Part shown: positions 4,970 through 10,178 of the stretch, one piece after another
How positions within the stretch are numbered: the first letter of the stretch is position 1
How the letters are laid out: each line of letters starts with the position of its first letter
IMG/VR virus record: IMGVR_UViG_3300008266_000405
Span: 1-26,016 of that record
Source of the DNA: a virus
Length of the DNA stretch: 26,016 nucleotides
Direction: 5' to 3' (one strand)
Translations under genes and position numbers: made by a program
The notes under the pieces: model-generated
The model's input: only the letters and a program-made list of their open reading frames with translations
Told to the model about the DNA's origin: nothing
The model's database searches: none

Positions 4970-6190
4970 TTATCCTTTCAATATTTGATCTGGCGTAACA
5001 GTACCGATTATAGCGGGGGTCTTTTTTGGTTCTGGTTCAGGACCAGATTCTGATTTATTGATAACGGTTATCATATTTTGTGCTATGTTGGCTCTGACTT
5101 TATCTTCTGATTTTTCAACTTGTTCGTTTGATTTTATTAATTGATTACCAGTTGAAGGTGTATTTGCCATTACTTGTTCTTTTGTATCACCCCACAAACC
5201 AGGAAATTCTTTTCTGTTTTCTTCGTTATCTTCCAGTAAAGCTTTGAAATATATTTCAACACCAGCTTCATGTAATTTTTGTGATTCTTCTGAAGATAAT
5301 CCTGGTTCAGGATCCCGACCACCAAAAGTTGTTGCTAAGTCAACAACTTTTCCATCTGGAAAATAATACGCATCATCTGTTTTTACTAGTTGACCAGATG
5401 TTATTGCTTTTTCTCTTGAAACAATTGAACTCTCTACTTTTGTTATCTCTTGTTTTGGTGTTTTGATCTTTTGATCCGCCATATCATTTAACGGCATTAC
5501 TTCTGTTTGTTGATCTTTTTTCTCTACATCTTCACCTGGTGCTTCTTGTGGTGGTTTTTCTGAAATAGCGTTATTTGAATTCTCTGTTTCTTTTTCATCG
5601 CTCATTTCTGATGTGCCAGAGCCTTCACTTGATTCTTCACTGCCTTCTTGATTACCACCTTCACTTGCTGTTTCAGCACTGCTTGGATTTTCACTATCTG
5701 AAAATAAATCAGTTAAAACACTGGCACCAAAGATACCAGCAAGAGCTACTCCAAGAGCAGCCCTGGCAGAAGAACCGATATCTGCAACTGATGTTTTATT
5801 AGAATTCATACCATCTAACAACTTTTCGACATTGAACTTCATCATTTCAACTTTATCTTCAAGAGATCTGATCAACATTGATGGGTCGTTGTTAGAATTT
5901 TTATTCTTTTTATCTTTTAAGTTTTTTACTTCTTCTTCAGATTCCAGAATTTGAATTTGAATTTGTTGTTCTTCTATAGCACTTTGAGTTGTTGACATCA
6001 TGCTATCTGTAACATCAATAATTTTTTGTATGCTATTGTCTATTGAAATTAATGAATCATTAAAATCTATTTTTAAATCGTTTACTTTATCATCTAATCT
6101 ATCAACTTGAGCTTGTATGTCACCCATTTGTTGAGCTTGTTGATCTGCAATTTGTGACATTGTTGTGCTTACATCAAACATACTAGCCAT
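4970..6190 (-). CDS. Coiled-coil structural protein with one hydrophobic segment, 406 aa
   Basis: The family is not recognised. The first 130 residues are strongly helical and coiled-coil-like (QIADQQAQQMGDIQAQVDRL and similar heptads). A hydrophobic segment follows at about residues 143-163 (ALGVALAGIFGASVL). Then comes a long Ser/Glu/Gly-rich disordered region (about 165-240) and a charged C-terminal part with YYFPDGKVVD. It has the same order of parts as the 458-aa protein encoded just upstream: coiled coil, hydrophobic segment, low-complexity linker, C-terminal region. The two genes overlap by one base (TAATG). Location after a frameshifted gp26-like gene suggests a hub, tape-measure or tail-lumen protein, but this is inference. 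Codon use is AT-rich like its neighbours. Confidence 0.8.
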   Translation of the reverse strand: MASMFDVSTTMSQIADQQAQQMGDIQAQVDRLDDKVNDLKIDFNDSLISIDNSIQKIIDVTDSMMSTTQSAIEEQQIQIQILESEEEVKNLKDKKNKNSNNDPSMLIRSLEDKVEMMKFNVEKLLDGMNSNKTSVADIGSSARAALGVALAGIFGASVLTDLFSDSENPSSAETASEGGNQEGSEESSEGSGTSEMSDEKETENSNNAISEKPPQEAPGEDVEKKDQQTEVMPLNDMADQKIKTPKQEITKVESSIVSREKAITSGQLVKTDDAYYFPDGKVVDLATTFGGRDPEPGLSSEESQKLHEAGVEIYFKALLEDNEENRKEFPGLWGDTKEQVMANTPSTGNQLIKSNEQVEKSEDKVRANIAQNMITVINKSESGPEPEPKKTPAIIGTVTPDQILKG

Positions 6191-7566
6191 TATGCCACCA
6201 TACTATTTTTTAGATTTATTGCTGGAATTAAATCTGGCTTATTTGATGAGCTTGCGTTTTGTTGTTTTGGTGCAGATCCATTGATCATACTGACCATGTT
6301 TGACGTGCTTTGCATTTTATTTCTCTTAACATCCTGTGAAGATGTTAACAAGTTTTGTCCAGAATCTGATTTCTTTTCACCAAGCGAAGCATTAGTTTGT
6401 ACTGGTTCTTTTTTGGATGAATTTTGCGCAGCACCAGGTTGAATTTTTGTTGCATCTGAATCAGGAGCTTTAGTTCCCATCTTACCTTCAAGAGGAACTA
6501 CTATACCTTCACGAAACCCTTCTTGCTTTTCCATTGTTTGAATAAGCGTGTTTCTCTGAGCTTCAGACAGTGAAGACAATTTCGTGCTTTCTGGCATACC
6601 TAAAGCTTTAGTCATAGCAGCAGCATAGGCATCTGGGTTACCACCCTTTGATTTTGGTGCATAGTTTTCAGCCAAGAATCTGATATCTTTGTTGAGATAC
6701 ATATTTTTTGGTCCAAATAACAAAGTTTGTCTTGCCTTTCGTCCCATTTCCAGTGTTGGAAATACTGCTGTTGGGTTTCCATCCCCAGCAATTGTGAAAC
6801 CAATAGCACCCATTTTTTCGGCAAATTTGCCTTTTTCGAATACAATATTTCCTGGGTTATTGTTTCTCCAGGAAATAGTGCCACCAACTTTTTTGTACTC
6901 TCCGTAGTTGGTTCCAAGATTTTTATTGATTACGCTTGCATTTGGGTCACCTGAGATCGATAAGTTTCCACCGTTACCTGTACCAGCTGGTAAATTTTCA
7001 CCACCGCCACCACCGCCACCGCCAGCATCGCCTTCTGGTAATCCAAGTTGTGCTGCGGTAACAACTCCTATGGCTATCAGAGTTCCTATCACCCATTTTG
7101 GCATACCTTTTATGGTATCCAGGAAAGAATCTGTATCTTCTGGTCGTATTTTAACTATATCTAAACTAAGCTCATCTATGAACTCTGACAGTTTTTCTAA
7201 TGATTTTTCAACATTAACATCGGATTCTTCTTCTTCAGCAAGCAAAAACTTTTCTTCTAGAATAGCTTCTCTGCTACGAGTTTCGTCTTTCTGTTGTTCC
7301 AGGACACTAGAAAGTTGATTTAAAGTTTGCTTACTGTTTTCAAGAACAGATTCAATTGAGTTCGTCAGTGTTGCTAATCTATCAGAAAACGAAGAAGAAA
7401 AATCATTTATTTTGCTATCTAAATTTTGAACAGCAGAAACTATATCACCCCCATTTTGTGATTGGGGTTGCTGATTTTGTTCAACTTCTTCCTTTTGTTC
7501 ATCCATATAGGTCTGAACCATGAAGTTGCTAACATCAGGAAAAGATTGTGCTGGTTGAATTTCCAT
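6190..7566 (-). CDS. Coiled-coil, membrane-segment structural protein with lysozyme-like RNNPGN domain, 458 aa
   Basis: Visible parts in order: helical coiled-coil region (about 40-145, with SDRLATLTNSIESVLE), a hydrophobic segment at 156-174 (PKWVIGTLIAIGVVTAAQLG), an eight-glycine tract (182-189), and a globular domain at about 225-355. A Ser/Gln-rich tail follows. The globular domain begins SWRNNNPGNI and contains YAPKSKGGNPDAYAAAM, the pattern of muralytic (lysozyme/transglycosylase-like) domains found in phage virion proteins. It could open peptidoglycan during DNA entry. The start codon directly abuts the TAA of the frameshift extension upstream (TAAATG), implying translational coupling. 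Possible tape-measure or hub protein: coiled coil plus hydrophobic segment plus muralytic domain and this gene position all fit, but no signature proves it. Confidence 0.8.
   Translation of the reverse strand: MEIQPAQSFPDVSNFMVQTYMDEQKEEVEQNQQPQSQNGGDIVSAVQNLDSKINDFSSSFSDRLATLTNSIESVLENSKQTLNQLSSVLEQQKDETRSREAILEEKFLLAEEEESDVNVEKSLEKLSEFIDELSLDIVKIRPEDTDSFLDTIKGMPKWVIGTLIAIGVVTAAQLGLPEGDAGGGGGGGGENLPAGTGNGGNLSISGDPNASVINKNLGTNYGEYKKVGGTISWRNNNPGNIVFEKGKFAEKMGAIGFTIAGDGNPTAVFPTLEMGRKARQTLLFGPKNMYLNKDIRFLAENYAPKSKGGNPDAYAAAMTKALGMPESTKLSSLSEAQRNTLIQTMEKQEGFREGIVVPLEGKMGTKAPDSDATKIQPGAAQNSSKKEPVQTNASLGEKKSDSGQNLLTSSQDVKRNKMQSTSNMVSMINGSAPKQQNASSSNKPDLIPAINLKNSMVA
7000..7023 (-). repeat. Poly-glycine codon tract (GGT/GGC x8)
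   Basis: Eight consecutive Gly codons (GGC/GGT mixture on the minus strand) between the hydrophobic segment and the lysozyme-like domain of the 458-aa protein. It looks like a flexible linker and a site prone to length change. Confidence 0.85.
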
Positions 7567-7743
7567 TTATTCTTGCTGTTTTTTAAGTTTTTCTTCTAGA
7601 TATATTTTTAACATATCAACATAAAGATCTCGTTCAAATGGTATCATATTTTCTAACTCTGTTATTGAATACTTGTGATGCTGAGCCATAGCGAATATTA
7701 CGGTGTAATAATTCGACAGAGTGTTGTGACTCAAGCAAACGAA
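7567..7743 (-). CDS. -1 frameshift extension of the gp26-like protein (58 codons)
   Basis: This frame is reached from the gp26-like gene by slipping back one base in an 8-T run. It encodes FVCLSHNTLSNYYTVIFA, then MAQHHKYSITELENMIPFER and a charged helix, ending at TAA 7569-7567. The fusion would be 288 aa. The first ATG in this frame (7689) has no Shine-Dalgarno sequence, and the 18 codons before it are open and protein-like, both pointing to frameshifting rather than independent initiation. The YSITELENMIPFERDLY segment resembles small T-like tail-assembly domains in other phages, where the G/GT frameshift makes the tail-assembly chaperone. In T4 the neighbouring small hub-assembly protein is gp51; relation to it is possible but not shown. 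Confidence 0.75.
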   Translation of the reverse strand, partial: FVCLSHNTLSNYYTVIFAMAQHHKYSITELENMIPFERDLYVDMLKIYLEEKLKKQQE

Positions 7744-8432
7744 AAAAAATCCTTTAAGCCCTCAAGTTTTACTTCTTTTTCTTCGTCAGCAGAATTGACA
7801 TATTTGATTGAAGACACCACTTTTGGCATAGTTTCAAAAAACAATCTTATCTTTTTCATGGTTAGCACATCTAGACTATCCAACCAATCAGAAACTTCAT
7901 TTTCATCATGATCAGCAACGATAATGACGTTATCACCAGAATAAATCTTATCAATAGATCTCACCAGGATTTTAGATGCTTTGTCACCATCATCTTTCAT
8001 TTTCATAATACTATCAATATCGTCAAAGTTTGGATATTTCAGCAGAAGACCAACCGTGTCATTAACCTCGATCTTTGGGCTTGCGCAGCCCTCAAACGAG
8101 ACTTCAACATCATCCAGGTCAGACTCTACCTCGTATTTTTTACCATCGTCAGAATCGGTTACAAGCAGATTTACGATGTTGTTGATAGAACGAGCACGAA
8201 TCTTTATGAAAATGTATTCCACATCAAAAGTCGGCAGTTTACTAACATCAGTATCGTCTAATACACAATTCTGAACCACTTGTTTAATTGCCAATACTTG
8301 TTGGCTCAAACCAGATTGTTTAGCCATTAGAAGAATTTTTTCTTCTTTGACCAGCATCATACGAAGTTTTATTTTCTTACCTGTTGATGGTACTTGAACC
8401 TCAAAGGTAGGGTATTCAATTTTAGGCAGCAT
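7731..8432 (-). CDS. 26: Baseplate hub protein, gp26-like (T4_baseplate family), unshifted form
   Basis: A 233-aa protein matching the T4 gp26 baseplate-hub family (T4 gp26 is 208 aa). N-terminal features are PKIEYPTFEVQVPSTGKKI and FRMML-type strand/helix RMMLVKEEKILLMAK, followed by LAIKQVVQNCV and PTFDVEYIFIKIRARS, the most conserved part. The C-terminal half is acidic. The family acts in hub assembly in the cytoplasm. ATG 8432 follows GAGGAAAT. The gene ends with KDFFSFA and TGA, but four codons earlier it contains a slippery TTTTTTTT, so a proportion of ribosomes probably produces the longer fusion. It lies downstream of a tube-initiator-like gene and upstream of two coiled-coil structural genes. 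Confidence 0.8.
   Translation of the reverse strand: MLPKIEYPTFEVQVPSTGKKIKLRMMLVKEEKILLMAKQSGLSQQVLAIKQVVQNCVLDDTDVSKLPTFDVEYIFIKIRARSINNIVNLLVTDSDDGKKYEVESDLDDVEVSFEGCASPKIEVNDTVGLLLKYPNFDDIDSIMKMKDDGDKASKILVRSIDKIYSGDNVIIVADHDENEVSDWLDSLDVLTMKKIRLFFETMPKVVSSIKYVNSADEEKEVKLEGLKDFFSFA
7742..7749 (-). promoter_or_regulatory. -1 ribosomal frameshift slippery site (T8)
   Basis: On the minus strand the sequence reads GAT TTT TTT TCG in the gp26-like frame, which contains the slippery heptamer T-TTT-TTT. After a -1 slip the next codon is TTC (7743-7741) and the frame stays open to 7567. The unshifted frame stops at 7733-7731. A small possible stem (GAGT/ACTC, minus strand 7732-7719) lies about 9 bases downstream and might stimulate slippage, but it is weak. 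Confidence 0.7.
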
Positions 8433-8444
8433 ATTATTTCCTCA

Positions 8445-9167
8445 TTATCTTCCAAAAAGGGTAGAACCCAGGGATTGTAAAGCATTTGTAAATCCAACAA
8501 GTCTGTCGATCTTACCAAACAGACGATCACTTTTCGATTCAATTCTGAAGCTATCTGAACCGAGGTAATGATAAACTATATCTCTATAGTGCATACGAAC
8601 AACTAATTTTGCCAGCTTATCTCTATCATTCCAATTCAAATCGATTGCTGTAATTGCTGTTGGAAAAGCTTCAGTTAACTCAACAGTTTTAATTCTTTCC
8701 GCAGTCTCATCAAATACATTTATCAATACGGTTGTGGTATAATTGCTTTTGTAATTTGCAAAATAAGGTCTTCTATTTGATACCAAGACACCATCAGATA
8801 TTTTTGATACATAGTCCATAGATCTAACTCTAGAATAATCTACGATTCCAAGAGTCCACTCTTCAAAAAAATCAGCTACGAATTTTTGATCTAAAACGAA
8901 TTCTAGACTTATATCACCCAACGTAGCGTTTGAAATGATTCTTTCTGAGAGACCATATCCGTATTTTTGAATGTCTTTGCCAACCAGAGTTACGCCAGGA
9001 ATGGAAGCAGCACTACAACGTAATGACAGTATTTCAGTTCTTTCTGGGTTCTTACTTCTGGCTTTCATACACGGGGGCATAGAGATCATGACATTGAAGA
9101 GATTGGTCTTCATGACCCCTCTCTTGTTGATCTCCGACATAAATTCGCTTATTCTGAAGGTTGCCAT
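8445..9167 (-). CDS. 54: Tail tube-fold protein, probably baseplate tube initiator gp54-like
   Basis: A 240-aa protein with the gp19/gp54 tube-fold pattern. Near the N-terminus is LFNVMISMPP, then LRCSAASIPGVTLVG, FFEEWTLGIVDYSRV, a strand pair around YTTTVLINVFDE, and EAFPTAITAIDLNW. These match the order seen in T4-superfamily tube proteins. T4 gp54 (320 aa) caps the gp48 ring and starts polymerisation of the gp19 tube. Here a gp48 homologue is encoded nearby on the other strand, and gp26 is the next gene. The length and position favour gp54 over the main tube protein gp19 (163 aa in T4), but a gp19 paralogue is not excluded. Ribosome site CAGGT precedes ATG 9167. Confidence 0.65.
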   Translation of the reverse strand: MATFRISEFMSEINKRGVMKTNLFNVMISMPPCMKARSKNPERTEILSLRCSAASIPGVTLVGKDIQKYGYGLSERIISNATLGDISLEFVLDQKFVADFFEEWTLGIVDYSRVRSMDYVSKISDGVLVSNRRPYFANYKSNYTTTVLINVFDETAERIKTVELTEAFPTAITAIDLNWNDRDKLAKLVVRMHYRDIVYHYLGSDSFRIESKSDRLFGKIDRLVGFTNALQSLGSTLFGR

Positions 9168-9172
9168 TTTGT

Positions 9173-9739
9173 TTACCTGTAAATGAAGTTTCCTGGTGAG
9201 TCAAAAGCTTCTTCCCACATTGCTCTTGGGATTTGTATTTTAGCTGTACGCACATAGCTATTTAGATACTTTTTATAACCTTTGTAATTAGATCCAACTT
9301 CGGATATTAATGCCATAGCCTCGCCTGGATCACCATCATCATCTAGGATATTCATTATTTCTTGTAATAGTGTTTTACGAGCCTGTTTATCGATATAATG
9401 AATATTAATACCAGCAAACCCACCACCAGTAAAATCGGTTACAAACACAACAGGAAATGTGTCCCATACAGGAAGTCTGGCTTTATTCTTTGCATCATAG
9501 GTGAACATCCAGAATTGAAGCGGATATTGGTCTTTACTTGGGTTTTGGCTTTTATTTTCCTGAAGAGCTTCAGTAAGCTCTATTTTTGACACCATTCTGC
9601 CATCTTTGGCATACCAAAAACCGCGCTGTTCATACCCAAGATCTTCCAGGATATCTCGCTGCTCTTCAGTGAATGCCTGTTCTTTTTTGGCTAAGTCTGC
9701 TAATCCGCCAGTCAATACATCAATTAATCTTTCAGCCAT
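9173..9739 (-). CDS. Conserved phage protein of unknown function, 188 aa, next to gp4
   Basis: I do not recognise this protein firmly. The N-terminal third is helical and contains GFWYAKDGRM. The centre has a distinctive motif, FWMFTYDAKNKARLPVWDTF, continuing as PVVFVTDFTGGGFAGINIHY, then ARKTLLQEIM. The C-terminus is a helix pair with aromatic residues ending SPGNFIYR. The motif (a compact 'LPxxDxxPxVF...GGGFxGxNxHY') recalls minor structural proteins of T4-like cyanophages. T4 places gene 2 (DNA end protector) beside gene 4, so a gp2 role is a hypothesis from position only. The start ATG 9739 overlaps the gp4 stop by 8 bases, so the two are co-translated. Confidence 0.75.
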   Translation of the reverse strand: MAERLIDVLTGGLADLAKKEQAFTEEQRDILEDLGYEQRGFWYAKDGRMVSKIELTEALQENKSQNPSKDQYPLQFWMFTYDAKNKARLPVWDTFPVVFVTDFTGGGFAGINIHYIDKQARKTLLQEIMNILDDDGDPGEAMALISEVGSNYKGYKKYLNSYVRTAKIQIPRAMWEEAFDSPGNFIYR

Positions 9740-10178
9740 TGTAGATTATTCCAAGATCTTTTTCGGTTAATATTAGAAATTGCCATTGCCTGTCGGCGCA
9801 ATAGTTTTTTGCTGCCTTCCACTTTGCCTGGTTTACGCCCCAGGTGTACACTTCGGTTAAGTAACTTTTTGTCTTTTTTTTCTGCACAACAGGTTCTTTT
9901 GTTTGCTTTTCTGGCTTGACTTCGACCACAATAGTTTCAATTACCCCATCTTTGTTTTTACGTTTGACCTTAAAGTCTGGGTAATATCTATGAACTTTCC
10001 CATCAATCGGTGATAAATAGGGTATGAAGAACTCCTCACTGGACCATTTTAGAACGTCTGGATGCTTGTCTAACCAGATCATGTACTTCAATTCCCAGGA
10101 GCTTCGGTAGATTATATTAGTGTGTTGCCCTTCGTATTTTGAAGGGTTTTGGGGTTGAAAGTAACCTTTATAAGCCAT
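9732..10178 (-). CDS. 4: Head completion protein, gp4-like
   Basis: A 148-aa protein close in length and sequence pattern to T4 gp4 (150 aa), also known as gp50/65. It shows PQNPSKYEGQHTNIIYRSSW, WLDKHPDVLKWSSEEFFIPY, then DGKVHRYYPDFKVKRK and IVVEVKPEKQT. These resemble a PD-(D/E)XK nuclease-like core: E44-E45 in SSEE, D64 (PDF), and E80-V-K82. In T4, gp4 finishes the packaged head so that tails can join. It is the first gene of the minus-strand unit, with a promoter-like CTAAATAGG just upstream and a weak ribosome site (GTGGA). Confidence 0.9.
   Translation of the reverse strand: MAYKGYFQPQNPSKYEGQHTNIIYRSSWELKYMIWLDKHPDVLKWSSEEFFIPYLSPIDGKVHRYYPDFKVKRKNKDGVIETIVVEVKPEKQTKEPVVQKKKTKSYLTEVYTWGVNQAKWKAAKNYCADRQWQFLILTEKDLGIIYNG

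Follow-up and report, generated by a model that had tools for sequence, protein, structure and literature searches.

A single gene in the window, the whole 26,016-nucleotide stretch of viral DNA analysed here, is predicted, with a probability of roughly 0.92, to encode both tail assembly chaperones of a T4-like contractile-tail phage by means of a programmed -1 frameshift. The evidence lies in sequence comparison: the relation between the two reading frames, its conservation, the geometry of the slip site, the homology of the frameshifted extension to gp51, and the presence of two copies of the gene in T4. The features on which the argument depends are the following.

10178-9732, minus strand: gp4-like gene
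9739-9173, minus strand: gp2 gene
8445-9167, minus strand: tail tube / gp54-like gene, upstream neighbour of the gp26-like ORF (phrog_45, tail tube, E=2e-26)
7731-8432, minus strand: gp26-like ORF of 233 aa, the short form (TAC-N), matching PF12322 and phrog_150
7750-7763, minus strand: Shine-Dalgarno (SD)-like GAGGGCTTAAAGGA upstream of the slip site, read directly from the sequence
7742-7749, minus strand: run of eight T, read directly from the sequence
7749-7743, minus strand: slippery heptamer T_TTT_TTT, in the zero frame of the gp26-like ORF
7567-7743, minus strand: -1 frame extension of 58 codons plus TAA, the C-terminal gp51 domain (phrog_634)
7680-7736, minus strand: possible downstream stimulatory RNA structure, starting about 5-6 nt past the heptamer
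7732-7734, minus strand: TTG of the -1 frame that overlaps the TGA of the zero frame, start of the ORF 7567-7734 and sole possible coupled restart
7687-7689, minus strand: first ATG in the -1 frame, codon 19, with no SD sequence
6190-7566, minus strand: next gene, 458 aa, candidate tape measure (phrog_2276, E=1.7e-14)

The zero-frame 3' end of the gp26-like ORF reads ...GGC TTA AAG GAT TTT TTT TCG TTT GCT TGA, with the stop TGA at 7733-7731, and thus contains the GAT TTT TTT TCG stretch with eight T exactly as described in the initial annotation. The -1 frame is open for 58 codons from 7743 to 7570 (translation FVCLSHNTLSNYYTVIFAMAQHHKYSITELENMIPFERDLYVDMLKIYLEEKLKKQQE), and its TAA (7569-7567) abuts ATG 7566 of the next gene. 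The predicted fusion, the long form (TAC-NC), comprises 230 + 58 = 288 aa, with a junction peptide around LKDFFFVCLSHN. The figures first given for the open frame, its stop and the fusion were all correct, as was the statement that the first ATG of the -1 frame has no ribosome site, there being no SD at 7689-7687. A +1 (or -2) shift was also considered and rejected: that frame is open for about 35 codons in the window (RLLESQHSVELLHRNIRYGS...), matches no family and is broken in relatives.

Several other genes in the window carry matches of their own. The gp4-like head closure protein (9732-10178, minus strand) shows a match to PF08722, the N-terminal domain of the TnsA endonuclease (E=1.5e-23). 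On the plus strand, a 247-aa protein at 539-1282 has its match in phrog_403, a family of DNA polymerase exonuclease subunits, so that the exonuclease may be a separate subunit or the DNA polymerase may be split, and two separate ORFs inside the replication-gene cluster, at 1290-1682 and 2429-2917, match endolysin families (phrog_2252, which is also a pyrophosphohydrolase family, and phrog_938).

The short form possesses the gp26 domain (PF12322, E=1.7e-52) and matches phrog_150 (baseplate hub) at E=4.5e-57 over profile positions 7-233 of 282. The search of the extension against gp51 families that had been recommended as a check matched phrog_634, the gp51 family labelled 'baseplate hub assembly catalyst', with E=1.2e-23 across residues 3-58, and a second, weak match was to positions 239-276 of phrog_150, the gp26 family (E=0.006); a search of Pfam with the extension gave no match. 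In T4, gp26 (208 aa) and gp51 (249 aa) both possess a PF12322 domain. T4 gp26 consists of PF12322 alone, whereas T4 gp51, which also matches phrog_634, is PF12322 followed by the C-terminal domain found here in the -1 frame; gp26 and gp51 can therefore be regarded as the short and long forms of one protein, and this shared architecture accounts for the weak match of the extension to phrog_150. The alignment is free of gaps across the junction, where T4 gp51 reads ...DVFKLLVNPDEIFTFYQIN... and phage Ah1 reads ...DFF|RLTLVNDSVYDLFNVN... (the bar marks the slip). By this comparison, the gp26-like protein of the window together with its extension corresponds to full-length T4 gp51. The extension had initially been thought to replace a separate gp51-like gene, a view that has to be revised, given that the phrog_634 match and the T4 comparison identify the extension itself as the gp51 C-terminal domain.

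A scan with the gp26-like protein retrieved 80 viral contigs and an independent scan with the extension only retrieved 80 more; with 13 loci from isolated phages, the dataset comprises 173 loci, of which 87 form a non-redundant set (<75% identity in the extension). In 173/173 loci the gp26-like ORF has a T run at its end and the extension in its -1 frame; a few of these ORFs are truncated at a contig edge. The same frame relation to the gp26-like ORF is present in 80/80 loci from the extension-only scan. T_TTT_TTN occurs in the same phase in 84/87 non-redundant loci, the T run begins at codon position 3 in 84/87, and the zero-frame stop is at most three codons away in 84/87. As a background, the other 20,575 codons in these genes yield 18 T_TTT_TTN sites, and the motif is found at 12 of the 85 Phe-Phe pairs elsewhere in them. 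This conservation of the slippery run and the -1 frame across aligned homologous loci agrees with the programmed -1 frameshift at the T8 run that had been proposed, and none of the outcomes named beforehand as counting against it (no homologue, an interrupted frame, no slippery run, or an independent start) occurred.

Homopolymers are prone to sequencing errors, and an indel error in the T8 run, or decay of the gene, could in principle have interrupted one continuous gene. The run is, however, kept in close relatives of the window, in contigs at 100%, 87% and 74% identity to it, so that a homopolymer assembly error is very unlikely, and the frame relation is the same with runs of six, seven and eight T, isolated phages being among the 173 loci; this conservation already refutes an indel or decay, the probability of which is negligible. 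Long T runs can also cause transcriptional slippage, and with eight T in the window RNA polymerase might slip to give mRNA with an extra or missing U, from which a normally translating ribosome would read the fusion. In 44/87 non-redundant loci, however, the run is only six T, which is short for transcriptional slippage and disfavours it; moreover, the start of the run at codon position 3 is needed for tandem tRNA slippage alone, and the SD-like and downstream RNA elements described below fit a ribosomal event. Slippage of the polymerase is accordingly judged very improbable.

A further alternative makes the extension a small gene of its own, read by coupled restart at TTG 7734 or started at ATG 7689. 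Public cyanophage annotations assume as much. In its favour, the TTG overlaps the zero-frame stop in the window, one cyanophage group has an ATG just past the zero-frame stop that is annotated as the gp51 start, and TAATG overlaps are present in KVP40, nt-1 and Ackermann-like loci. Against this, 37/87 loci have no ATG, GTG or TTG within the first 12 codons of the extension, and although 27/87 have an ATG within these codons, ahead of the conserved core, an SD-like motif precedes the ATG in only 1/87. In the window sequence itself, no SD was seen at proper spacing from TTG 7734. Coding conservation also begins ahead of any ATG: between the slip site and the first ATG, pairwise comparison of the close relatives L006 (identical to the window), L007 and L008 gives 14 differences, 12 of them on third positions of the -1 frame, which bears out the earlier view that the 18 codons ahead of the first ATG are coding. 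Across 1098 locus pairs, which overlap and are therefore descriptive, differences are distributed over codon positions as 24/19/57%. Furthermore, the first predicted helix of the extension spans residues 9-23 and would be truncated by a start at ATG 7689, the heptamer is held in a fixed phase that a restart would not need, and T4 gp51 has the extension domain covalently fused to the gp26-like domain. A separately translated extension is therefore considered improbable, and the -1 frameshift is retained as the preferred reading.

In the proposed mechanism, most ribosomes would terminate at TGA 7733 to give the 233-aa short form (gp26-like, TAC-N), and a minority would slip by -1 with tRNA-Phe on both Phe codons of T_TTT_TTT. 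The slipped ribosomes would read 58 more codons and so produce the long form of 288 aa (TAC-NC), the counterpart of full-length T4 gp51. GAGGG about 9 nt upstream, pairing in the manner of an SD sequence, and an RNA structure starting about 5-6 nt downstream would probably assist the slip. If the pair works as lambda G/GT does, coating of the tape measure protein would fall to the short form and recruitment of tail tube subunits to the long form. The occurrence and rate of slippage, the action of the stimulators and the partners bound are inferences from these sequence features.

In the window, GAGGG (7763-7759) ends 9 nt ahead of the heptamer. Family-wide, anti-SD pairing of 8-mers at -12 to -6 from the heptamer exceeds that of synonymous-codon shuffles, with -2.74 kcal/mol at -10 (shuffled, -0.98 +/- 0.28) and -5.09 kcal/mol at -7 (shuffled, -3.66 +/- 0.19); a subgroup ending ...TCTCAAAGATTTTTTTATG has no SD-like element upstream of the slip site. 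Downstream, the structure in the window is modestly unusual (minimum free energy -12.9 kcal/mol, z -1.48), and across the family, 60-nt stretches that start 12 nt from the beginning of the heptamer fold with a mean z of -2.06, 47% of loci lying under -2 at this position and values being about zero at -60 and +60. A single downstream structure conserved family-wide was not found; the structures are instead lineage-specific, and an Rfam search returned nothing of weight. In one cyanophage group, an 11-bp hairpin begins 5 nt past the heptamer, with 95% of cells paired and two pairs showing compensatory changes on both sides, and its covariation score was reached by 0/500 shuffles and in no slid register. 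These 20 sequences are mutually related and were selected for pairing, and so the hairpin is supported within that cyanophage group only. Stimulatory elements, both SD-like and structural, thus appear to be present at the family level, and the window alone is suggestive of them. The layout is like that of the -1 frameshift in Escherichia coli dnaX, where an SD-like element lies about 10 nt upstream of a tandem heptamer and a hairpin lies downstream. The two differ in that the dnaX slip site is A_AAA_AAG as opposed to T_TTT_TTN, and the shifted dnaX product is the shorter one.

The initial annotation treated the gp26-like product as a hub protein and the extension as a T-like tail-assembly domain. 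The evidence supports regarding gp26 as a tail assembly chaperone in preference to a hub subunit, and the locus, by analogy, as a chaperone pair of the lambda G/GT type adjoining a tape-measure candidate. An AlphaFold2 model of the gp26-like protein (pLDDT 88.5) gave, among the PDB fold matches listed, two with a probability above 0.7: 2ob9, the HK97 tail assembly chaperone (probability 0.77, E=0.69, 59 columns), and 3fgx, from Bacillus and uncharacterised (0.75). With E-values that fall short of significance, the likeness to the HK97 chaperone is suggestive. A model of the extension has a pTM of 0.50. A sequence-profile search of the PDB gave nothing meaningful, and profile comparison with lambda G and T detected no similarity. 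The T-like designation is thus upheld by architecture and weakly by fold (2ob9), but not by sequence similarity to lambda gpT or gpG. In the record of phage Abraxas, gp26 and gp51 are both named 'tape measure protein assembly chaperone'.

The next gene, suggested at first as a possible tape measure, is a candidate for that role, its 458-aa product matching phrog_2276 (tail length tape measure) over residues 129-419, with a hydrophobic segment near residue 158 by hydropathy and a hydrolase-like part after it. The consecutive proteins encoded at 6190-7566 and 4970-6190 (minus strand) each possess one mid-protein hydrophobic segment, and the former contains an octaglycine stretch and a WRNNNPGNI hydrolase-like part. 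Either of the two products is a candidate for the tape measure.

A single PF12322 gene is present in each of 13 named non-T-even phages, namely S-CAM9, S-PRM1, S-SRM01, S-SSM7, P-RSM4 and phiM7, together with KVP40, Ah1, S13, Mendera, RL38J1 and two Ackermann-like phages; T4 has two. The window record, which is a fragment, and its longer twin (L006/G001) have one each, and the T-even two-gene arrangement is absent from the window record and from the 13 isolated non-T-even phages. The device is not peculiar to this phage; frameshifting is the norm among cyanophages and is common to many further T4-like phages, with the T-evens as the exception. The gene pair 26 and 51 is also present in 44RR, Abraxas, RB49-like phages and RB43-like EC-F2. 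In Enterobacter phage EC-F2 (L098, 1501-3188), genes 51, 26 and 25 lie in tandem on one strand, whereas T4 genes 26 and 51 are divergent, and the tandem looks like an unrearranged duplication.

On a phylogenetic tree, in which several long branches were flagged by the program, the T-even gp26 and gp51 sequences group together (96/95), those of gp51 make up a single clade (100/99), and the frameshift-type phages KVP40, nt-1, Ah1 and S13 sit outside the T-even gp26/gp51 group. The simplest reading of these sequences is that the T-even genes 26 and 51 probably arose from one duplication in the T-even ancestor, which replaced the frameshift. A broader history is somewhat favoured, in which a single frameshifting chaperone gene, with T_TTT_TTN, an SD-like element and a lineage-specific hairpin, would be ancestral to T4-type phages as a whole. 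The T-evens would have lost the frameshift once via duplication, gene 51 becoming the in-frame long form and gene 26 the short form with their dosages decoupled, and annotation artefacts would explain why gp51 looks 'shortened' in cyanophages and vibriophages and 'missing' in Aeh1.

Some relatives depart from the common slip site. Two Ackermann-like loci (L092, 2200-2400; L093, 2210-2400) have no tandem heptamer and possess ACTTTTT or ACTTTTC with TAATG. In these two and in L101 (1800-1990), also Ackermann-like, the extension or a gp51-annotated ORF is kept alongside runs of only four to five T (ACTTTTT, ACTTTTC, CATTTTC) and a TAATG overlap, and they may use coupled restart or single-codon slippage instead. 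In the unannotated record of Desulfovibrio phage 7757 (L100, about 2150-2350), which is outside the usual T4-like hosts, the gp26-like gene ends in EDFF and the conserved extension lies in another frame.

In comparison with known systems, T4 has the same pair of proteins, a gp26 domain alone as the short form and a gp26-type domain with the same C-terminal domain as the long form, but encodes them in two divergent, separate genes with no slippery run, whereas the window has a single gene with a predicted -1 slip. PMC5009743 assigns tape measure binding in lambda to the G part and recruitment of tail tube subunits to the T part, and cites Xu et al. 2004 for the gpG/gpGT -1 frameshift, which has analogues in other long-tailed phages. 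The window shares with lambda a short form and a -1 extended form from one gene, a slip near the stop and a position upstream of a tape measure candidate. It differs in its T_TTT_TTN slip site, its place in a T4-type baseplate cluster, where it follows a tail-tube/gp54-like gene, and the lack of detectable sequence similarity of its proteins to lambda G or T. A conserved -1 frameshift in tail assembly chaperone genes is also known from Vandenendeviridae and Andersonviridae (PMC12846349), with a poly-T motif (GTTTTT), a -1 frame open in all genomes and an extension mis-annotated as a separate gene; these are other phage families.

Among the papers covered by a full-text search, none was a primary paper on a gp26/gp51 frameshift, and the work of Vladimirov, Gautam and Davidson 2022 (Virology 566:9-15), which identified gp26 and gp51 as the T4-like chaperone pair, is known here via citing papers. 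PMC10274946 refers to it for T4-like phages, some of which have a short chaperone gene and a long fusion gene and no frameshifting, and in PMC12846349 it is the source given for poly-T signals for frameshifting within the TAC-N genes of such phages. Judging from these citations, the principle was already known, and the poly-T slip variant of T4-like chaperones seems to be known too. The stimulators, the finding in Aeh1 and the mis-annotation of cyanophage gp51 may be additions to it.

In 2010, gp51 of cyanophages and vibriophages was noted to be without its first ~200 residues (~20% of normal length for cyanophages) and gp51 was noted to be missing in Aeh1 (PMC3037559). In Aeromonas phage Aeh1 (L187, NC_005260; 1044-1260), an unannotated extension lies in the -1 frame after GATTTTTTCGACTGA, with a T6 run at the end of gp26, and in many records the extension appears as a gene of its own or is left out altogether. 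Frameshifting offers a simple account of the 2010 remark and corrects a recurrent mis-annotation, in which gp51 appears as a separate ~60-aa gene or is missing. The comparative evidence points to it as the most likely route to the long chaperone in this phage and in a large share of T4-like phages, the examined cyanophages included. The T4-like phages would thereby provide a natural comparison of two ways to set the dosage of one protein pair, through the efficiency of a frameshift or through separate expression of two genes.
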